Shown here piece by piece: positions 3,868 to 35,762 of a stretch of 36,472 nucleotides of DNA. Each line of letters starts with the position of its first letter. Positions within the stretch are counted from its first letter, which is position 1. The notes beneath the pieces were generated by a model. It was not told the DNA's origin and searched no databases. It saw only the letters and a program-made list of their open reading frames with translations. The stretch lies in assembly GCA_000424365.1 (NCBI GenBank), contig AUJT01000031.1:5813-42284 (forward strand), read 5' to 3'. Origin of the DNA: Lachnospiraceae bacterium NK4A144 (GTDB lineage Bacteria > Bacillota > Clostridia > Lachnospirales > Lachnospiraceae). A program made the translations under genes and the position numbers.

Positions 3868-4899
3868 TCATTGAGTTTTTCTGTAATCCTTAGGCGAGCA
3901 GCCGTATTTTTCTTTGAATTTCTTATAGAAGAAAGTTACATTTTCATAGCCTGCCTTTGCGGCGATTTCTGTAACGGGCAGATTGCTCGAGTTTAAGAGT
4001 TGTGCGCTGTAATCTAATCGGTATGTCTGAACCAGTTGTATATAGGACATACCGATTTCTTTTTTTAAAAGAGTAGTGACATAATTTGGAGAGATGTGAA
4101 ATAGTTTTGCCACATCTGATTGGCTGCAGGTCCGGAAATTGTGCTGCAAATAGTGAAGTATGGAAAAAGCCAGTGAGGACTGAGGGCTTTTGGCAGTCGT
4201 TACCAGATCGCTTTCGTATACATTTATCAATTCTGCAAGGATCAGGTAGAAAAGATGCAGAGTAATGTCATTTGCATTTATAGACGGATCAAAGTATTCA
4301 CAACATAGTTCAGAGAAAAACAGAGCTATGCGTTCATTTCCTTCTGAATGGAAAAGGATATAGTGGTCGTGTTCAGTCTGGGTATTTAACGCCTGTATAA
4401 AGAAACGTGTAAGGAAATTGTCCTGTGAGATCTGTGACAGGAAGCTTTCCCTTAAATAGGTTTTGGGGATTATGATCGACATCAGGATATCGTCATGATC
4501 GAGATACCCTATGGAGTGCGGACATTCCGTATCGATCAAAAGAACCTGTCCTTTTTGAAGCAATATATCATTTCCGTCTACGCTCTGGCTGCAGGTTCCG
4601 GAATAAACAAAATTCATTTCTATGTAATTATGGATATGCTCGGGAACAGGATTAAAACGTGAGGTTTTCTTGATGATTATGGAGTTTCCGAGGTTCATGA
4701 TATAGCGGTTATTTCCGGCATGGCCGTCAAGACCGGAAGTGGTGCCCATCTCATGTTCGTTTCCTATCACGCTGTACAGTTTTCCGTTAAGTTCTTTTTT
4801 AGGCATATGTGCCCATCCTGTAAAGGAATAGCCATCTTTATATTTTTTTTCACTTTCAGACAATTCTTTAAGTTTATAGTCAAGGCTTTTAATATTCAT
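3868..4899 (-). CDS. AraC-family transcriptional regulator with cupin sensor domain
   Basis: 343 residues. The N-terminal cupin-like sensing region (about 70-170) contains PEHIHNYIEMNFVYSG and LLQKGQVLLIDTECPHSIG. The C-terminal double helix-turn-helix (about 240-343) includes SQSDVAKLFHISPNYVTTLL and PVTEIAAKAGYENVTFFYKK ending SPKDYRKTQ. Start ATG has CGGAG upstream. It is divergent from the PTS/glycosidase operon at 5185, so it most likely activates that operon in response to its sugar. A family A repeat (4939-5012) has landed in the shared regulatory gap. Confidence 0.9.
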   Translation of the reverse strand: MNIKSLDYKLKELSESEKKYKDGYSFTGWAHMPKKELNGKLYSVIGNEHEMGTTSGLDGHAGNNRYIMNLGNSIIIKKTSRFNPVPEHIHNYIEMNFVYSGTCSQSVDGNDILLQKGQVLLIDTECPHSIGYLDHDDILMSIIIPKTYLRESFLSQISQDNFLTRFFIQALNTQTEHDHYILFHSEGNERIALFFSELCCEYFDPSINANDITLHLFYLILAELINVYESDLVTTAKSPQSSLAFSILHYLQHNFRTCSQSDVAKLFHISPNYVTTLLKKEIGMSYIQLVQTYRLDYSAQLLNSSNLPVTEIAAKAGYENVTFFYKKFKEKYGCSPKDYRKTQ

Positions 4900-24642: not shown

Positions 24643-24848
24643 TTAAAAATGATGTAAGGGTCAAAAGTAAATTTTGCCCCTTACTGATGTCACGGATTGC
24701 TTCATTGCTACGCAATTCCCGCAATCCTAAAACACTCGCATTCCGCGTAATAACGCTACTTGCTCGTGTTTTGCGGGTCCCAAGGTCTCAATCCTCTTTG
24801 TGCAAGCACAATCGGATTTTGACCTTTTGACCCTGACATTTTAAAAAT
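24643..24848 (+). mobile_element. complete MITE-like element, family A, with 8-bp direct repeats
   Basis: The element spans 24651-24840 and is flanked on both sides by TTAAAAAT (24643-24650 and 24841-24848), which looks like a target-site duplication. Terminal inverted repeats ATGTAAGGGTCAAAAG and CTTTTGACCCTGACAT match at 15 of 16 positions. Interior stems include GGATTGC/GCAATCC (24694 and 24721), AAAACAC/GTGTTTT and TTGTGC/GCACAA. No coding capacity, so it would need a transposase in trans. The right 95 bp are identical to the copy at window positions 1-95. Confidence 0.8.
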
Positions 24849-26880: not shown

Positions 26881-26937
26881 AAGAATAGAAGAAGAGCATT
26901 TTTCCGTATCCGGAAAGGCTCTTCTTCTGTTCTTTTT
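26881..26937. terminator. bidirectional terminator between the hydrolase gene and the polyamine operon
   Basis: AAGAA-T-AGAAGAAGAGC pairs with GCTCTTCTTCT-G-TTCTT, with an additional inner stem TTTCCG/CGGAAA (26901-26916), followed by TTTTT on the plus strand and preceded by A-rich sequence serving as the minus-strand tail. It ends the hydrolase gene and, on minus, aguB and the whole polyamine operon. Confidence 0.9.
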
Positions 26938-27811
26938 ATTCAGTTATTTCACTATAACATTCAGGTCTGCGATCTCTGAATAATCCCCATGAAAGACGTT
27001 CTTCACGGATCTTATCGAAATCAAATTCTGCGGTAAGGATCATATCACCACTACGCTCTGCTTCTGTAAGTATCGCGCCGGTTTCATCTGTTATAAAGCT
27101 TTTGCCGTAAAACATCAACTCAGATGACTGGTTTCCGTTCTCCTTGCAGGGAGTTACTTTTTCCAGACCGAAGCGATTGGCAGCGGCTACAGGGATGATA
27201 TTTGCTGCAGAATGTCCCTGCATCGTACGCTGCCAGTGAGGTGCGCTGTCTACATCCAGTATAGGTTCACTGCCGATAGCTGTGGGATAGAGCAGTATGT
27301 CAGCTCCTTTAAGTGCCATGCATCTCGCAGTTTCAGGAAACCACTGATCCCAGCATATTCCTACACCTACATTGCCGTATCGTGTGTTCCATACCTTAAA
27401 ACCGGTATTCCCCGGTGTAAAGTAAAACTTTTCCTGATAATAGTGATCATCAGGGATATGCGTTTTACGGTATACGCCCATAACAGAACCATCAGCATCT
27501 ATCATTGCGATAGAATTAAAAAGCCGTGTACCATCTTTCTCGTAGAAACTGACAGGAAGTGTTATTTCCAACTCACGTGCGACTTTGCTGAATCGCTGCA
27601 CTGCCGGATTTTCATCCGTAGGCGTTGCATATTCATAATATTCGTATCTTCGTTCCTGACAGAAATATGGTCTTTCAAACAACTCAGGCAGGAGTATTAT
27701 CCCGGCGCCCTCATTAGCAGCTTTGCGGACCAGTTTTTCTGCATGAGCTATATTTGCGTCAGGATGCGCCTCACAGCTCATCTGTATTGCAGCGATCTTA
27801 ACTGAACTCAT
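26936..27811 (-). CDS. aguB: N-carbamoylputrescine amidase
   Basis: Hydrolyses N-carbamoylputrescine to putrescine, CO2 and ammonia. 291 residues from ATG 27811 ([16 protein letters not shown]), preceded by AAAGGA; the start overlaps the aguA stop as ATGA, implying translational coupling. It is a nitrilase-superfamily protein with the triad Glu in LLPELF, Lys in YRKTHIPD and Cys in [10 protein letters not shown]. The segments [14 protein letters not shown] and [16 protein letters not shown] are typical of AguB. Last gene of the polyamine operon. Confidence 0.95.
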
Positions 27812-28926
27812 CGCGTATTTCCTTTCTGTATTGGGATCTGTTGGGTGATGCAATGGATATTTCCGCCGCCAAGAAGGATCTCCCTTGAATCGATCCCTAT
27901 TATTTCTCTGTCAGGGCAGAGTTTTCTCATGATATCGAGAGCTCTCTTATCACTTGAAAGATTTTCTCCGCCAAATTGAGGAATTAGAGCGATTTCATTA
28001 CCGAAGTAAAAATTAACGTAGCTGGCTGCCAGACGTTCGCCGGTGTCCCTGACATCTTCGCCTTCTTCAAACTCATATTTGGAAAGATCTTCTTCGGTGA
28101 TAAGAATCGGTTTATCCGGGATAGGCAGCTTATGTATCGTGATCTTTCTGCCCTTTGCATCAGTAACGCCCGACAAATAGTCATGATCTGCTTTTGACAT
28201 TGCATACTGAGGGTCAGATTCATTATCAGTCCAGGCAAGTACGACCTCTGCAGGCTTGACAAAAGCACATACGTTATCAACGTGTTCATTGGTTTCGTCA
28301 TTATATATGCCGTATGGAAGCCACAATACTTTTTCGGCGCCGAGCGCATCGCAAAGCTTCTTTTCGATCTGTTCCCGGGTGAGTTTAGGATTACGTCCTG
28401 CGCTCAAGAGACAGGCTTCGGTAACGAGGAGGGTTCCTTCGCCATCTGAATGAATGGAGCCGCCCTCTAATACGAAGTCATTAAAGTCGTAAAAATCTTT
28501 TTTTAACGCGTCGCAAAATGCGGCTGCCGCAGTGTCATCTTTTTCCCAGTCTGCGTAGAGACCATCAACATCTCCGCCCCAGGCATTAAATTTCCAATTT
28601 ATTCCCCGCACATCATGTCCGTTTGTCACAAACGTCGGTCCCACATCTCTCGCCCAGGCGTCATTAGTAGGGATTTTCAGTACTTCGGCATTTTTTCCGA
28701 GAGAAGACTTAGCCTCCTCTGCGTGCTCATTATCCGCAAGAAAATATACCTTTTCGTGCGGTGCCAACGCTTCTGCGATCTTTACAAAGGCTTCCTGCGC
28801 TTTTGACGGATCCTTTCCCCAACTTCCGGGGCGTGTAGGCCAGATTAAGAGAGTGCCTGTGTGAGGGGCATACTCTGCCGGCATATAGTAGCCGTCAGAT
28901 GACGGATTCTGATTTTGTATGATCAT
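27808..28926 (-). CDS. aguA: agmatine deiminase
   Basis: Converts agmatine to N-carbamoylputrescine and ammonia. 372 residues of the PPAD/AguA family, with the opening [57 protein letters not shown] and the active Cys in [15 protein letters not shown]. The start is ATG 28926, but the sequence ahead (ACGAAAGC then A-rich) is a poor ribosome site, unlike every other gene in the operon. The gap of 36 bp to nspC is the largest in the operon. Confidence 0.96.
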
Positions 28927-28962
28927 TTTTTTGCTTTCGTTTTTTACAATTCATAAGCTTTG

Positions 28963-30090
28963 TCATGACAGACGATTTTTGAAGTCATCATATCCAAAGC
29001 TTCTTATTACTTCACATTCGCCATTGTCATGCATCAATGCAATATCAGGTAAAGGCATACCGTTAAATGTATTGTTCTTTACCATGGAATAGATCGCCAT
29101 ATCCTCAAATATGAGTGTCTCGCCAATTTCAGGCAGCCTGTCAAAGCTATATTCACCTATAACATCTCCTGCAAGACAGGTTCTGGATGCGAGCCGGCAG
29201 GTAACTGCTTTTTCATTTGGAAGCCCACTGCTGCGGAGTGGCGGGCGATATGGCATTTCCAGAACATCCGGCATATGGCATGCTGCTGATGCATCCAGGA
29301 TCAGTATCGGCATATCGCTCTCAACTATATCCATTACCTTTGTATAGAGATAACCCGCGTTTAGCGCTATTGCCTCTCCGGGTTCCAGATATACTTCGAC
29401 GTCATATGTTTCTCTTAAATGGAGTATCGTCTTTTCAAGAAGAGAAATGTCATATCCGGGCTTGGTTATATGATGTCCGCCGCCCAGATTTACCCATTTG
29501 GCTTCTTTTAAGTATGTACCGAAATTCTCTTCAACTGAGGCGACAGTCCGTGCCAAGGGTTCAGCATCCTGTTCACAAAGTGTGTGAAAGTGGATACCCT
29601 CAACACCCTTAGGAAGATGCTCCGGAAGATCTTTTCTTCGTATTCCCAGGCGTGAGCCCGGTGCACAGGGATCATATATTTCATGTCCTTCCTGTGTTGA
29701 ATACTCGGGATTTATACGGATCCCGACACTTACTCCGGACAGTTCCCAAATTGATCGATGAAGCTCCAGCTGACGCAGTGAATTAAAGCTGATATGGTCA
29801 CATATCTCACATACCTCGCGCATCTCACTTTCTGTATAGGCAGGGCAGAAAACATGATTTTCGCCCTGCATTTCTTCGTGAGACAGACGGGCTTCGTAAA
29901 GTCCGCTGGCGGTCGCACCGGAAATATATTTAGAGATTAAAGGATAAATACTAAACATCGAGAAGGCTTTTTGCGCCAGAAGAATATGGCATCCGGTCCT
30001 TTCTTCTACGGCATGCAGTATTTCAAGGTTGTCCCTGATCCTTTTTTCATCAACAAGATACACAGGTGTTTTAAGTTCAGTATCTTTCAA
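28963..30090 (-). CDS. nspC: carboxynorspermidine/carboxyspermidine decarboxylase
   Basis: PLP enzyme that decarboxylates carboxyspermidine to spermidine (or the nor-analogue). 375 residues of the alanine-racemase-fold group III family: PLP Lys in ILLAQKAF (about 42), GATASGLYEARLS, GIHFHTLCEQ, NLGGGHHITKPGYD, YLEPGEA and the active Cys in RTCLAGDVIGEY. The start is TTG 30090, after AAAGGA that overlaps the upstream stop codon; no nearby ATG fits the conserved N-terminus. It receives its substrate from the dehydrogenase encoded 12 bp upstream. Confidence 0.95.
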   Translation of the reverse strand: MKDTELKTPVYLVDEKRIRDNLEILHAVEERTGCHILLAQKAFSMFSIYPLISKYISGATASGLYEARLSHEEMQGENHVFCPAYTESEMREVCEICDHISFNSLRQLELHRSIWELSGVSVGIRINPEYSTQEGHEIYDPCAPGSRLGIRRKDLPEHLPKGVEGIHFHTLCEQDAEPLARTVASVEENFGTYLKEAKWVNLGGGHHITKPGYDISLLEKTILHLRETYDVEVYLEPGEAIALNAGYLYTKVMDIVESDMPILILDASAACHMPDVLEMPYRPPLRSSGLPNEKAVTCRLASRTCLAGDVIGEYSFDRLPEIGETLIFEDMAIYSMVKNNTFNGMPLPDIALMHDNGECEVIRSFGYDDFKNRLS

Positions 30091-30102
30091 TTCGTTTTTC
30101 CT

Positions 30103-31362
30103 TTATTCCACGGTTGCGGGATTTTCATCAACGATCCATGGCAGACCAAATTCTGTCAGCATTTCCATGTACGGATCGGGATCGAACTCATCAGTTGTGA
30201 GAGTACCTCTCTTATTCCAGATGCCATTTGCGACAAGTGCAGTACCGATCATTGCCGGAACGCCTGTTGTATAGCTGATCGCCTGGCTTCCGAGTTCTTT
30301 GTAGCATTCCTGATGATCACAAACATTGTAAATGCAGATGGTCTTTTCTTTTCCGTCTTTAATTCCGGTAAAGATACATCCGATATTTGTCTTTCCGACA
30401 GTTCTCGGTCCGAGTGATGCAGGATCCGGAAGGAGCGCCTTTAAGAACTGGATAGGTACGATCTCATGACCGTTGAAATTGATCGGTGTTGTGGAGAGCA
30501 TGCCTACATTTTCAAGGCACTTCATGTGTGTAAGATAGCTCTGGCCAAATGTCATGAAGAAACGGATCCTCTTTACACCTGGGATATTCTTTGCAAGAGC
30601 CTCGATCTCCTCGTGGTGCAGGAGATACATATCTTTCTTGCCGACCTGTGGGAAATCATATTCACGCTTAATGGACATTGCCGGTACTTCTATCCAGTGT
30701 CCATCTTCCCAATAGCTTCCCGGAGCGCTTACTTCTCTTAAGTTTACTTCCGGATTAAAGTTAGTTGCGAAAGGATATCCATGATCACCGCCATTACAGT
30801 CAAGAATATCGATCGTATGGATCTCATCAAAATAGTGCTTTAATGCATATGCAGAAAATACGCTTGTTACGCCGGGATCAAAGCCTGTTCCGAGGAGTGC
30901 TGTGAGTCCTGCGTCCTTAAATTTCTGATCATATGCCCACTGCCATGAATAATCGAAGTATGCGGAAAATCCTAAATCTTTACATCTCTTTTCGTAGATC
31001 TTTCTCCACTCTGGATCATCGGTATCTTCAGGCTCATAATTAGCTGTATCAACGTAATGAACACCGCAGGCGAGACAAGCATCCATGATGGTCAGATCCT
31101 GATAAGGAAGAGCTACATTAAGTACAACATCCGGCTTATATGAATTAATGAGAGCCTTAACTTCTTCTACATTATCAGCGTCAACCTGTGCAGTTGTTAC
31201 GATGGTAGATGTCTTGCCCTCAAGCTTATTCTTGAGATCGTCACACTTTGATTTTGTGCGGCTCGCTATGCATAATTCCTTAAAAACGGCACTGTTCTGA
31301 CAGCACTTCTGGATAGCAACCTGTGCTACGCCGCCGCATCCTATAACTAAAACTCTGCTCAT
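30103..31362 (-). CDS. carboxyspermidine dehydrogenase (saccharopine dehydrogenase-like)
   Basis: Reductively condenses putrescine with aspartate semialdehyde to carboxyspermidine using NADPH. 419 residues of the LYS9/saccharopine dehydrogenase family. The N-terminal Rossmann motif VLVIGCGGVAQVAIQKC (4-20), DVVLNVALPYQDLTIMDACL, GTGFDPGVTSVFSAY and WQWAYDQ with NCNGGDHGYP-type segments are typical. Adjacency to nspC assigns it to the polyamine rather than the lysine pathway. ATG overlaps the speE stop as ATGA, with AGGAGG inside the end of speE. Confidence 0.93.
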   Translation of the reverse strand: MSRVLVIGCGGVAQVAIQKCCQNSAVFKELCIASRTKSKCDDLKNKLEGKTSTIVTTAQVDADNVEEVKALINSYKPDVVLNVALPYQDLTIMDACLACGVHYVDTANYEPEDTDDPEWRKIYEKRCKDLGFSAYFDYSWQWAYDQKFKDAGLTALLGTGFDPGVTSVFSAYALKHYFDEIHTIDILDCNGGDHGYPFATNFNPEVNLREVSAPGSYWEDGHWIEVPAMSIKREYDFPQVGKKDMYLLHHEEIEALAKNIPGVKRIRFFMTFGQSYLTHMKCLENVGMLSTTPINFNGHEIVPIQFLKALLPDPASLGPRTVGKTNIGCIFTGIKDGKEKTICIYNVCDHQECYKELGSQAISYTTGVPAMIGTALVANGIWNKRGTLTTDEFDPDPYMEMLTEFGLPWIVDENPATVE

Positions 31363-32219
31363 GATTTGTTTTCCTCCTCACGTAAAAGATCCTCAACATA
31401 ACGCGGCAGCATGAATGAGCCGCAGTGAAGATTTGTTGTGTAATACCATGTTTTTATATTTCTGTCATTCCAGCGCTGACGATCAAAATCCTTTAACGGA
31501 TGATATTTCTTGCTGGCAAAGCCGAATAACCAGTATCCTGCAGGACATGTCGGGATATGTGCCTGATAAACACGATTTATCGGGAAGCTTCGATATGCCT
31601 TTCGGTGCATTGCTCTGCAGGAATCTTCGTCTTCATCAAAGAAGGGGCTGCCATGCTGGTAAACCATGATCCCGTCTTCGCGAAGGGCACGGAAACAGTT
31701 TCCGTAAAATTCCTTAGTAAACATGCCTGCTGTATGTCCGAGCGGGTCGGTACAGTCATTTATGATCAGATCATACTGGTCATGTCGTGACCTTAGGAAA
31801 CGAAGACCATTTTCGTTGTAGATCTTAACTCTTGGGTCATCTAATCCGCAGGCGTTATCCGGAAACCATTCTTTACAAACGTCGATAAAAAGCTGGTCTT
31901 CTTCAACGACGTCAATTTCTTCTATTTCATCGTAATATGATAGCTCACGCGCAACACCGCCGTCTCCGCCGCCGATCACCAGCACTTTTTTTACACCGGG
32001 GTGAACTGCCATGGGTACGTGAACGATCATTTCGTCATAAACGAACTCATCTGCTTCAGAAAAGATAACGCTCCCGTTGGAACAGAGAAAGCGTCCAAAT
32101 TCCGGTGATTGAAAAACATCTATTCTCTGATATTCACTTTCGCCTGAGAAAAGCTGTTTATTGACACGAATAGACATCTTTACATTGTTCGTGTGTAATT
32201 CTTCAAACCAGAATTCCAT
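31359..32219 (-). CDS. speE: spermidine synthase (polyamine aminopropyltransferase)
   Basis: Transfers an aminopropyl group from decarboxylated AdoMet to putrescine or another amine. 286 residues, normal length. Motifs: VLVIGGGDGGVARELSYYDE (nucleotide-binding loop), EIDVVEED, YDLIINDCTDPLGHTAGMFT with both catalytic-site Asp residues, YQHGSPFF and IPTCPAGYWLFGF. Translationally close to speA (1 bp between stop and ATG). No speD is visible in the window, so the source of decarboxy-AdoMet is unknown. Confidence 0.93.
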   Translation of the reverse strand: MEFWFEELHTNNVKMSIRVNKQLFSGESEYQRIDVFQSPEFGRFLCSNGSVIFSEADEFVYDEMIVHVPMAVHPGVKKVLVIGGGDGGVARELSYYDEIEEIDVVEEDQLFIDVCKEWFPDNACGLDDPRVKIYNENGLRFLRSRHDQYDLIINDCTDPLGHTAGMFTKEFYGNCFRALREDGIMVYQHGSPFFDEDEDSCRAMHRKAYRSFPINRVYQAHIPTCPAGYWLFGFASKKYHPLKDFDRQRWNDRNIKTWYYTTNLHCGSFMLPRYVEDLLREEENKS

Positions 32220-32220
32220 T

Positions 32221-33681
32221 TTAGTAGGTTCCTTTCTTCAGTACATTGAGGCGTGAGATATCATCGCTCTCAGGTCCCTGCATAGAGCAGCCTTTTTCCT
32301 GGGCAAAGCGGATGTATTCTATGATGTCACGGGTTATCACTTCTCCGGGGGCGAGGATCGGTATTCCCGGAGGGTAGCACATAACTGATTCCGCGCAGAC
32401 ACGTCCTGCACATTCCATTATCGGAAGAGATTCTTTATCCGCATAAAATGCCGTCTGTGGAGTAGTCACGACAGTGGGTGAGATATACTCTGCGGAAAAA
32501 AGTTTTTTCTCCGGCTTTGAATATAACCTGTAGATATCAGATAATGCACCTACCAGACGTTCTATATCCTGAATAGAATCACCGATCGAAATATATGCAA
32601 GGATATTGCTTATATCTCCAAATTCCATCTGAATGTCGTATTCATCACGGAGAAGATCGTAAACTTCGATACCGGCAAGTCCGATCCTGTGAGTCAGAAC
32701 AGCAAGCTTCGTTACATCAAAGTCATAAACACTTCCACCGTTTATCAGTTCTTTTCCGTAAGCATAGTAACCGCCGATCGCATTTATCTCTTCACGTGCA
32801 TACTCGGCCATACGGGCAACTTTTTCAAATGATTCTTTTCCGCGTAAAGCAAGATTTCTGCGAGAGAGATCGAGACTCGCCATCAGCAGATAGGAAGCGC
32901 TCGTAGTCTGTGTGAGGTTGATTATCTGTCCTACATATCCGGGATTCATCTGAGGTCCGAGGAGTAATAAGGAACTCTGTGTGAGACTTCCACCTGACTT
33001 ATGCATGGAAATGGAAGCCATATCTGCCCCTGCCTCCATGGCAGAGCAGGGGAGTTCATCGCTAAAGTAAAAGTGTGTTCCGTGAGCTTCATCAACCAGT
33101 GCAAGCATGTGGTGCTCATGAGCCATTTTTACGATAGTTCTGAGATCCGAGCAGATTCCGTAATAAGTAGGATTATTTATTAGTACTGCCTTGGCATCGG
33201 GATTTTCTTCCATTGCTTTTTTTACATCGGTAACTTCCATTCCAAGAGGTATGCCAAGCTCAGTATCTACTTTTGGATCGATGTAAACCGGAGTCGCACC
33301 GCAGAGAACAAGTGCGTTTATGGCGCTTTTATGCACATTTCGAGGAAGGATGATCTTGTCACCCGCCTTACATGCAGACAGTACCATGGCCTGCACGGCG
33401 GAAGTGGTTCCTCCGACCATAAGGAAAGAATGTGCAGCTCCAAATGCGTCTGCAGCAAGTTCTTCAGCTTCCTTGATGATGGAAACCGGATGACACAGGT
33501 TATCCAGCGGTTTCATGGAATTAACATCAATCCCTACGCATTGTTGTCCAAGGAAATTAACCAGCTCCGGATTTCCGCGGCCTCTTTTATGTCCCGGCAC
33601 ATCAAACGGAACGACATGTAATTTACGAAAGCGCTCTAAGGCATCATAGATCGGCGCCTTTTTTTGTTTTTCAAGATTCAT
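32221..33681 (-). CDS. speA: arginine decarboxylase, Orn/Lys/Arg decarboxylase fold
   Basis: Decarboxylates arginine to agmatine, the first step of this operon's pathway. 486 residues, the short aspartate-aminotransferase-fold form found in Firmicutes (SpeA/YaaO/Cad group). VPFDVPGHKRGRGNPEL opens the protein; VGGTTSAVQAM, VDEAHGTHFYF and the PLP-lysine motif SISMHKSGGSLTQSSLLL follow. The C-terminal domain has CYPPGIPILAPGE. Substrate Arg is inferred because aguA and aguB follow; lysine or ornithine cannot be excluded from sequence alone. Start ATG 33681 follows AGGGATGAG, just after the leader terminator. Confidence 0.92.
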   Translation of the reverse strand: MNLEKQKKAPIYDALERFRKLHVVPFDVPGHKRGRGNPELVNFLGQQCVGIDVNSMKPLDNLCHPVSIIKEAEELAADAFGAAHSFLMVGGTTSAVQAMVLSACKAGDKIILPRNVHKSAINALVLCGATPVYIDPKVDTELGIPLGMEVTDVKKAMEENPDAKAVLINNPTYYGICSDLRTIVKMAHEHHMLALVDEAHGTHFYFSDELPCSAMEAGADMASISMHKSGGSLTQSSLLLLGPQMNPGYVGQIINLTQTTSASYLLMASLDLSRRNLALRGKESFEKVARMAEYAREEINAIGGYYAYGKELINGGSVYDFDVTKLAVLTHRIGLAGIEVYDLLRDEYDIQMEFGDISNILAYISIGDSIQDIERLVGALSDIYRLYSKPEKKLFSAEYISPTVVTTPQTAFYADKESLPIMECAGRVCAESVMCYPPGIPILAPGEVITRDIIEYIRFAQEKGCSMQGPESDDISRLNVLKKGTY

Positions 33682-33693
33682 TTTTTCTCATCC

Positions 33694-33756
33694 CTAACTT
33701 AAAAAACAGGCAGTGCCGCGTATTACAGCACTGCCTGTTATCATTCTCTTAATCAT
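33694..33756 (-). CDS. possible 20-codon leader peptide overlapping the speA attenuator
   Basis: On the minus strand ATG 33756 opens MIKRMITGSAVIRGTACFLS and stops TAG, spanning the entire terminator hairpin (33700-33739). A ribosome in this frame would disrupt the hairpin. The Shine-Dalgarno is weak, and the two Arg codons are AGA and CGC. It may be a chance frame. Confidence 0.25.
   Translation of the reverse strand: MIKRMITGSAVIRGTACFLS
33700..33739 (-). terminator. intrinsic terminator in the speA leader (attenuator)
   Basis: Read on the minus strand, AACAGGCAGTGC and GCACTGCCTGTT form a perfect 12-bp stem around an 11-nt loop, followed by TTTTT. It lies 19 bp before the speA start codon. 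There is no gene upstream on this strand, because the next gene (34299) is divergent, so its only target is the polyamine operon's own leader. Confidence 0.8.
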
Positions 33757-33812
33757 TTCAGATCTGTCTCTGTCAGATTGCCTATTGAACGTTTCACAAG
33801 TGTGCTTTTGTC

Positions 33813-33845
33813 ATTACAGTTCACATGTAAATGAGTGAACGTAAT
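33813..33845. repeat. hairpin repeat family B, shortened copy within the speA leader
   Basis: ATTAC-A-GTTCAC...GTGAAC-GTAAT folds into stems of 6 and 5 bp. It is the family B outer stem with the CGTAAAC/GTTTACG inner part collapsed to ATGTAAATGA. Confidence 0.55.
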
Positions 33846-33962
33846 CTTTTAACACCGGTTATAGAGTAACCATCTTATAAAATTGAGCTTTTAACTCGAT
33901 CAATATGTGACTTCACGCCACTTCGGCAACGACCGCCAGAAATATTGTATCTATCGACATAC

Positions 33963-33990
33963 AGAATAACAAAAATAATCTGTATGTCAA
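33963..33990 (-). promoter_or_regulatory. promoter of the polyamine operon
   Basis: On the minus strand: TTGACA (33990-33985), a 16-bp spacer and TATTCT (33968-33963). A second TTGACA lies 18 bp upstream (34008-34003), and the two are part of an inverted repeat TCAACT-TTTC-AGTTGA that could be an operator. The predicted leader to speA is about 275 nt, containing a CAATAT/ATATTG-bounded stem with GC-rich interior, a GGTTA/TAACC hairpin, the family B hairpin and the terminator. Confidence 0.5.
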
Positions 33991-34227: not shown

Positions 34228-34298
34228 ATTTACTTGATTAGATAGTAAAATGTATCAACGTCACATTAAAAATAATCAAATGAAGGTTGATCAAAATT

Positions 34299-35762
34299 AT
34301 GGGTTTAGTTACAGCTATTTATAATCTTTTGTGGGGAGATCTTGTTACGATATCGTTGCCGGGAGGCGGATCACTGGGACTTTCTCTGTTAATCATTCTG
34401 CTTATTCCGGCAGGTATATTCTGTACAATCATTACACGTTTTTTACCTATAAGACTTTTACCAGAAATGCTGACCGTTGCAGTTGAAAAGAAAAATGAAA
34501 ATACAAACGGTAAGCAAAATGCTGTGTCCGGTCTGGAGGCCTTGATCGTTTCTACAGCTACACGTGTCGGCATGGGAAATCTGGTCGGAGTGGTAGCAGC
34601 AGTTTCTGCAGGTGGTGCAGGTGCGGTTTTCTGGATGTGGATCACTGCGATCATTGGTTCAAGCACAGCTTTTATAGAATCGACTCTGGCACAGATCTAT
34701 AAAGAAAAGGATCCTCTCTATGGTGGTTACCGCGGAGGTCCTGCGTTTTATCTTCATTCGCTATTTAAGGGAAAAAAGAAAAAGAGTATCCTGGCGATCC
34801 TCTTTGCGCTTTCAGGGCTGCTCTGCTGGTGCGGTATCAGCCAGGTTATAGGAAATTCTGTATCATCGGCATTTGATAATGCTTTTCATGTACCGCCTAT
34901 TGTTACAGCTGTTATTCTTTGTACGATAAGCGCATTTATCGTGCTTAGAAAGAATATATCAGTTAAGGTTCTGGATGTGATCGTTCCTGTCATGGCAACA
35001 TTCTATTTCGTGCTTACAGTGTTTGTGATCATTACAAATATCAGCGCACTGCCTTCGGTTTTCGGAAGGATATTCCAGGAAGCGTTTGGATTCAGACAGG
35101 CAGCTTCGGGAGCTTTTGGCGCTATCCTTATGAATGGTGTAAAGAGAGGGCTTTTTTCAAACGAGGCAGGCTCAGGTTCCGCTCCGTGTGCTGCGGCAGC
35201 GGCTGATGTGACCCATCCTGTAAAATCCGGTCTGCTGCAGGCACTCGGCGTATTTATAGATACGATCGTGATATGCAGCTGTACAGCATTTATGATGCTG
35301 CTGGTTCCGGACAGTGTTACGGCAGGACTCGGAGGAATGGATCTCCTGCAGGAAGCAATGAGATATCATTTCGGAAATATAGGCGTGATATTTATCGCTT
35401 TGACACTTTGGTTTTTCTGTTTCTCAACATTTATCGGAGTATTGTTCTATGCCCGCGGAAATGTTGCTTATGTTTTCGGTGATAACTGGACATCGCAGAC
35501 GATCTATAAAGTGATCGCTATCATAAATCTGTTTATCGGATGCATGGCAGCATATACCTTTGTATGGGATCTCGGAGATGTGGGAATCGGACTTATGACT
35601 ATTTTTAATATGATGGCGCTTATACCGCTTTCAAAGGAGGCTATTGAATCGCTGAAAGATTATGAGCTGAATCATATTAAGAAGCGAAAGACGGGCGGAG
35701 AGATCCGGCCTTTCGTAAAAAAAGACAGCATCATATGGCAGGAAGATAGTGAAGCTTCGTGA
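34299..35762 (+). CDS. alanine/glycine:cation symporter (AGCS family)
   Basis: Sodium- or proton-driven uptake of alanine or glycine (sometimes other small amino acids) across the membrane. 487 residues from ATG 34299; an upstream TTG at 34287 abuts the GAAGG ribosome site and is rejected. Signature segments: ATRVGMGNLVGVVAAVSAGG plus AGAVFWMW, YRGGPAFYL, GLFSNEAGSGSAPCAAAAAD and HPVKSGLLQALGVFIDT, with about ten membrane helices. Divergent from the polyamine operon across a 617-bp gap containing two palindromes. Followed by a terminator shared with tRNA-Gln. Confidence 0.93.
   Translation: MGLVTAIYNLLWGDLVTISLPGGGSLGLSLLIILLIPAGIFCTIITRFLPIRLLPEMLTVAVEKKNENTNGKQNAVSGLEALIVSTATRVGMGNLVGVVAAVSAGGAGAVFWMWITAIIGSSTAFIESTLAQIYKEKDPLYGGYRGGPAFYLHSLFKGKKKKSILAILFALSGLLCWCGISQVIGNSVSSAFDNAFHVPPIVTAVILCTISAFIVLRKNISVKVLDVIVPVMATFYFVLTVFVIITNISALPSVFGRIFQEAFGFRQAASGAFGAILMNGVKRGLFSNEAGSGSAPCAAAAADVTHPVKSGLLQALGVFIDTIVICSCTAFMMLLVPDSVTAGLGGMDLLQEAMRYHFGNIGVIFIALTLWFFCFSTFIGVLFYARGNVAYVFGDNWTSQTIYKVIAIINLFIGCMAAYTFVWDLGDVGIGLMTIFNMMALIPLSKEAIESLKDYELNHIKKRKTGGEIRPFVKKDSIIWQEDSEAS

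Follow-up and report, generated by a model that had tools for sequence, protein, structure and literature searches.

The polyamine operon and its leader

The window, i.e. the whole stretch of DNA analyzed here, spans 36,472 nucleotides of contig AUJT01000031.1 from Lachnospiraceae bacterium NK4A144. Its minus strand carries a presumed operon whose products are an Orn/Lys/Arg decarboxylase, the spermidine synthase SpeE, a CASDH-like protein related to carboxynorspermidine synthase (which scores below NCBIfam's own cut-off), NspC, AguA, and AguB. The start codon of speA begins at 33681 and is preceded by a leader of ∼274 nt, from about 33955. Elsewhere in the window, two matches to Rfam RF01699 (Clostridiales-1 RNA) are found at 24685-24841 and 1-97, both on the minus strand. 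The genes, promoter, terminator, and short frame of the locus are as follows.

26936-32219, minus strand: speE, CASDH-like gene, nspC, aguA, and aguB, the remainder of the presumed operon (protein family matches)
32221-33681, minus strand: speA-type Orn/Lys/Arg decarboxylase gene, the first controlled gene (protein family matches)
33694-33756, minus strand: 20-codon frame of the original prediction, MIKRMITGSAVIRGTACFLS, judged to be no conserved leader peptide (comparison with relatives)
33705-33739, minus strand: intrinsic terminator-like hairpin with a U-rich tail (terminator scan)
33963-33990, minus strand: sigma-70-type promoter-like element, TTGACA, 16 nt, TATTCT (consensus scan; the same element is in the same place in L034)

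The original prediction, made from this DNA alone, described a leader of about 275 nt running from a predicted promoter, and this agrees with the 274 nt that we found downstream of TTGACA-16-TATTCT (33990-33963, minus strand). It also described a perfect 12-bp, U-tailed terminator. The strong hairpin (33739-33705, minus strand) and its U-rich tail are there, and the scan scores the stem as 15 pairs including weak ones. Because the agcS-like gene upstream of the leader is divergent (34287-35762, plus strand), the terminator can act only on the speA transcript, as had been proposed. The leader folds with a minimum free energy of −78.3 kcal/mol versus −58.2 (S.D. 4.4) for 200 dinucleotide shuffles, a z of −4.6 with the terminator included. 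The structure of the leader exceeds chance, since its core, as detailed below, turns up repeatedly across the phylum. No Rfam family reaches its own cut-off in the window leader, and the eight matches obtained at E up to 10 are all far under their family cut-offs. Neither the T-box (RF00230) nor SAM-I matches the window leader, also at E up to 10, and SAM-I is equally absent from the 24 distinct homologous loci scanned. A known riboswitch, a T-box, or SAM-I was rejected as the identity of the window leader on the basis of these Rfam scans.

A conserved core and the domain preceding it

A BLAST search with the window leader returned 53 of 299 family genomes, most of which share a stretch of ∼50 nt with 80-94% identity, and the same conserved block is seen upstream of SpeA homologues. 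We built a covariance model (R1) from 45 sequences on a trimmed core alignment made with MAFFT (A2), because variable hairpins were misaligned in the full-length alignment and in an earlier one (A1). A2 excludes leaders with long inserts, including that of the window. RNAalifold on A2 returned stems P1-P3, and P4 was added by hand before pairs were counted. In the resulting architecture, P1 encloses P2 and a long P3, which in turn encloses P4 and P5. In the window, the core reads as follows.

33783-33923, minus strand: full extent of the core as matched by R1, with 69.5 bits and a genome-wide E of 6.1e-14 (covariance model)
33907-33921, minus strand: hairpin b, GUGGC..GUCAC, whose sequence differs between relatives (alignment of relatives; minimum free energy fold)
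33900-33905, minus strand: P1 5' strand, UAUUGA, whose partner is 33783-33788 (pair counts; nearly invariant)
33885-33897, minus strand: P2 hairpin, GAGUUAAAAGCUC (compensatory changes)
33874-33882, minus strand: P3 5' strand, UUUUAUAAG (RNAalifold, pair counts)
33857-33871, minus strand: P4 hairpin, GGUUA..UAACC (G-C/A-U exchanges among relatives)
33802-33856, minus strand: P5, a variable hairpin outside the covariance model and the pair counts (comparison with relatives)
33792-33800, minus strand: P3 3' strand, CUUGUGAAA, of which CUUGU is shared with the antiterminator (pair counts, coupling test)
33783-33788, minus strand: P1 3' strand, UCAAUA (pair counts)

Within P5, a hairpin-forming insertion of ∼40 nt (about 33807-33847) is common to the window and L034 and absent from the near-identical L035.

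R1 occurs in Lachnospiraceae and also, beyond this family, elsewhere in the phylum. Positive genomes number 49 of 200 in the family and 20 of 398 in the phylum (the window's own genome being counted in each), 6 of 48 congeners, and 5 of 73 genomes in the order of G478. A covariance search of homologous leaders had been named beforehand as the check to make, and the core does recur with covarying stems. In 96 distinct R1 matches, 97.3% of cells are paired and 12 of the 25 pairs show two-sided changes, which fall entirely in P2, P3, and P4. The covariation score is 0.114, versus a maximum of 0.038 for slid structures, in this alignment that is itself fitted to R1. In A2, which is not so fitted, the score is 0.071 versus a maximum of 0.044, with five pairs showing two-sided change versus six in the −1 slide. 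P1 and P3 are both highly conserved, with two-sided changes in none of six and two of nine pairs, respectively. P1 hardly varies, and it is therefore supported by its conservation and not by covariation. The core resembles the sensing part of riboswitches in being structured, conserved, and located in the 5' UTR of genes whose functions are linked. In one locus (L208, from genome G196), two R1 cores (501-630 and 891-1020) lie 390 nt apart, upstream of a ∼200-codon frame beyond which speD is located; these are tandem switches.

In many relatives, a 54-nt domain classified in Rfam as RF02440 (SpF59_sRNA, "ldcC RNA") lies immediately 5' of the core. The ldcC motif was reportedly named by Weinberg et al. 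in 2017. To survey it we used 99 elements, which correspond to 101 R1 matches in the 100 loci searched, minus L112 (cut off) and one of the tandem copies in L208. As assessed with a loose pattern, the CGGACAG domain is in place before the core in 84 of the 99 leaders and is missing in place from 14 besides the window (L012 has a displaced copy). By covariance-model score (membership cut-off 37.2 bits), RF02440 was assigned in three scans to 8 of 10, 1 of 5 (L027, a repeat), and 4 of 10 loci of relatives; in the first of these, one further locus is just under the cut-off, and in L020 the domain is missing. Each of the 10 genomes in which RF02440 was found also carries R1, the two matches being 0 to 20 nt apart. 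In the window leader, RF02440 has no match at the cut-off nor at E 10. A GCUC subtype, which comprises the window's own genus and its neighbors (L034, L036, L043, L052, L218, L219, L220, and L222), does not reach RF02440 at E 1, and all four intact congeners scanned fall short of the family. The link of this subtype to RF02440 therefore rests on position and on CGGACAG..GCCG. In L052, the opposite strand carries a T-box leader (4229-4454, minus strand), which lies immediately upstream of the leader of the polyamine genes.

The hairpin of this domain is supported by compensation. In 77 distinct relatives, its middle pair is G-C in 39, C-G in 33, and unpaired in 5, which is a clear compensatory pattern. 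The register taken for this 5' hairpin does not suit the GCUC subtype, its outer pair being G-G in 16 cells. The outer 4-nt stem has an exact upstream complement in 56 of the 77, versus 31.4 upon permutation; in the 31 leaders that do not read GGUC, the exact complement is present in 15, versus 4.1 expected. In the window, the ldcC hairpin around CAUACGGACA, with its UGACC/GGUCA closing stem, has no 5' half, as is apparent from alignment with the nearest relative, L034, whose SpeA is 99% identical.

33937-33938, minus strand: junction where the window lacks 61 nt of L034, which cover the ldcC-like domain's 5' half and the sequence ahead of it (alignment to L034)
33921-33934, minus strand: what is left of the ldcC-like domain at its 3' edge, GGUCGUUGCCGAAG (aligned with L034 and relatives)

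The claim that the leader holds no known motif is thus true of the window itself and has to be qualified for its family, since many homologous leaders match RF02440 and the window lacks ∼61 nt of its nearest relative. A further 56 nt are absent between the terminator and speA. The 61-nt difference may be biological or an assembly error; CGGACAG is kept in the other five of the six R1-positive congeners. Six leaders (L016, L018, L020, L025, L028, and L033) have no CGGACAG domain, and in five of them a ATGCAAATATT-like stretch directly precedes hairpin b. The CGGACAG module seems to have been lost repeatedly. The window leader is a degraded member of an RNA family that is widespread and strongly conserved.

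Pairing between the core and the terminator

Terminators were called in 85 of the 99 homologous leaders (a few lie inside genes and add only noise), with no call in the remaining 14. We asked how well a core segment, consisting of 8 nt plus CUUGUG at the start of the P3 3' strand, pairs with the 5' arm of the leader's own terminator. Terminators with an energy ≤ −12 and an offset ≤ 260, taken irrespective of their position relative to the start codon, were available for 71 of the 85 leaders; L183 was dropped because it has no exact segment (leaving 70), and removal of duplicates left 66. In these 66 leaders, the mean pairing with the own terminator is −11.5 kcal/mol, versus −8.3 when terminators are permuted, a value reached in 0 of 20,000 permutations, which do not remove relatedness among leaders. 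The signal persists after thinning to 49, 36, 22, and 14 representatives, and the last set, under 75% identity, again gives 0 of 20,000. The variable 8-nt flank alone gives 9 of 20,000. The signal peaks at the P3 3' segment (z −11.3) and the windows overlapping it (z −9.7 and −8.3). Remaining core windows range from −3.0 to +1.8, the lowest being −3.0 (core 19-32), −2.9, and −2.7 (the last two adjoining the peak). Controls with the terminator 3' arm and with the reversed segment give z values of −1.3 and −0.1, respectively.

In the window leader, pairing is possible between AGCACACUUGU (33806-33796) and ACAGGCAGUGCU (33738-33727), and both are identical to the segment and arm of L035, for which the pairing energy is −11.6.

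33796-33806, minus strand: antiterminator 5' strand, AGCACACUUGU (duplex with terminator arm; coupling test)
33727-33738, minus strand: antiterminator 3' strand, ACAGGCAGUGCU, which is the terminator 5' arm (duplex, coupling test)

For the whole window leader, the OFF fold is favored over the ON fold by 16.9 kcal/mol, and by just 3.6 kcal/mol once only the terminator 5' arm has been made. The own-terminator coupling points, on sequence evidence, to an expression platform that is mutually exclusive with the conserved domain, as in riboswitches. Because the arm of a leader's own terminator is a far better partner for the start of the P3 3' strand than are the arms taken from other leaders, the arrangement is best read as a transcription OFF switch. 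Because P3 excludes the antiterminator and the antiterminator excludes the terminator, the attenuator would be off when the core is folded. The original prediction had allowed for either riboswitch or leader-peptide attenuation; attenuation of a riboswitch-like kind is what the terminators in 85 of 99 leaders and the sequence-specific coupling support, and the leader-peptide half of the proposal did not hold up (see below).

In the scheme that we propose, the conserved core (P1, P2, P3, P4, and P5) would be followed by the intrinsic terminator, and the start of the P3 3' strand together with the nucleotides preceding it could alternatively pair with the terminator 5' arm. With the core folded and P3 formed, the terminator would form and speA-speE-CASDH-nspC-aguA-aguB would be off; with P3 open, the antiterminator would form and the operon would be on. 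Since the window copy has lost half of the upstream ldcC-like domain, its response may be altered. Loss of this half might even have broken the switch, leaving the window leader constitutive or weakly terminated, as the 61 nt missing relative to L034, the additional 56 nt missing between the terminator and speA, and the retention of CGGACAG in the other R1-positive congeners could suggest. We consider this somewhat unlikely. The window retains the core, the terminator, and an antiterminator identical to that of L035, and among the 14 other leaders without a CGGACAG-like motif several pair strongly with their own terminator (L026, −12.6; L204, −11.9; L208, −12.5).

Genes downstream of the core and the probable signal

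We determined which genes follow the RNA in 74 genomes, the R1 positives of the family, phylum, congener, and order searches, which were selected by RNA and not by SpeA. This set was preferred over the 99 elements because some genomes occur twice among the latter. Of seven reference proteins sought downstream, the one encoded closest to the core is SpeA in 42 genomes, SpeD in 21, and carboxy(nor)spermidine dehydrogenase (CASDH) in 9, with none in 2; intervening frames were examined in the seven genomes where the distance is >330 nt, and in G196 a frame of ∼200 aa precedes SpeD. The median distance of the reference gene from the core is about 225 nt. The two exceptions are a contig end and an M28-family peptidase with a lipoprotein-like start, which leads one of the 73 readable downstream regions. 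In the latter (L210, 1625-4083), the core and a CACGGACGG variant of the ldcC motif precede the peptidase gene, and this is the sole genome with enough downstream DNA and no reference polyamine gene within 3.5 kb. Another copy, found by BLAST (L015/L214; L214, 462-5085), precedes a potA-potB-potCD import operon in which potCD is a fusion.

Conversely, the R1 core is absent at E 0.01 from 52 of 80 SpeA loci, mostly in Butyrivibrio (within L045-L109); this count includes L045, with no upstream DNA, L078, with only 264 nt, and L107, which is borderline (0.047), and L041 was scored positive from separate evidence. The core is therefore not essential to speA operons. In the window's genus, SpeA is ≥85% identical in all six genomes that have the RNA, whereas three genomes with a SpeA of 69-78% identity lack the RNA; in a further one, G716, the gene is only a fragment at a contig start.

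From the computed results (the core and its conservation, the genes, the terminator, the antiterminator coupling, and the missing stretch), we infer a ligand, its direct binding, and the direction of the response, and spermidine fits the genes best. The CASDH-NspC route yields spermidine without SAM, and spermidine is therefore preferred over SAM, MTA, agmatine, and arginine. PotABCD imports spermidine, making it the shared product of these operons, and an OFF switch spanning both synthesis and import fits end-product feedback. Aptamer-like size and conservation suggest direct binding. On balance, we think it probable that the leader acts in cis as an RNA switch, attenuating transcription of the polyamine operon when the core is folded, and that the signal is most likely spermidine, bound directly; as the end product of the pathway, it would hold the core folded in a riboswitch-like manner and so shut the operon off once polyamine is plentiful. 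Arginine, agmatine, putrescine, and spermidine had all been put forward as ligands, and the downstream genes favor the last, making the other three less likely.

It is unlikely that the ligand is another metabolite of the pathway, i.e. putrescine, agmatine, arginine, SAM, dcSAM, or MTA. SpeA or SpeD follows the RNA in 63 of the 74 positive genomes and the window operon contains the agmatine genes aguA and aguB, both of which would suit such a ligand, but CASDH-led operons (9 of 74) need no SAM at that step, SpeD is not an agmatine enzyme, and by pathway logic it is a polyamine end product that unites the synthesis operons with PotABCD import. The main rival to direct metabolite binding is recognition of the folded core by a protein sensor, or by another factor acting in trans, through the same RNA switch and expression platform. 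The near-invariant P1 and P3 helices would suit a protein site equally well, but size, domain structure, and breadth across families are reminiscent of aptamers, and we regard a trans-acting sensor as unlikely. The original proposal that the 20-codon frame might encode a speFL-like peptide, by which translation would be coupled to termination, was rejected as highly implausible: an ATG frame does span the hairpin in the window, but among 12 near relatives (counting frames of at least 8 codons that start ≤110 nt after the core) a similar frame runs through the hairpin in just 4 (L034, L035, L036, and L037), with differing ends, 3 have another or shorter frame (L038, L039, and L046), and 5 have none (L040, L042, L043, L044, and L095), whereas the RNA structure is conserved over the phylum.

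Control of polyamine genes from a leader has precedents. Selective polyamine riboswitches have long been sought, and leader peptides of the speFL type act on such genes from the leader. The odc1 motif (PMC8632094) resembles R1 leaders in controlling polyamine genes from the leader; R1 leaders differ from it, and from speFL-type leaders, in having no conserved peptide. A spermidine riboswitch that is a variant of SAM-I, with a four-stem fold and 13 representatives, has been described (Salvail et al. 2023, PMC10853860). It shares with R1 leaders the polyamine genes, an OFF response by premature termination, and an antiterminator competing with the terminator for its left shoulder, and it differs in its SAM-I fold, which none of the R1 leaders scanned matches. 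RF02440 is related more directly, as its 54 positions directly precede the core in relatives, but Rfam types it as an sRNA gene of 54 nt only, with the core, antiterminator, and terminator outside.

No description of the R1 core and no study of the ldcC RNA was found in the literature searched, which covered few subscription papers. New here are the core, un-catalogued in the RNA-family library searched, and its coupling to the terminator, which extend the ldcC RNA since RF02440 covers the 5' part only. The R1 leader is possibly a second class of polyamine riboswitch. We tentatively suggest that the core, with or without the ldcC domain, could be an aptamer that binds spermidine or a closely related polyamine, structurally unrelated to the SAM-I variants and much commoner than these, governing both synthesis (speA, speD, and CASDH) and import (potABCD). 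In leaders that have both domains, these may form one composite or tandem sensor. The demonstrated class (PMC10853860) consists of 13 rare SAM-I variants, whereas R1 is broad, conserved, and placed before synthesis genes and, once, before import genes. Because the expression platform is already mapped by covariation, the question of the ligand is directly testable, and the Rfam "sRNA" RF02440 would be recast as the 5' portion of a longer leader that acts in cis.
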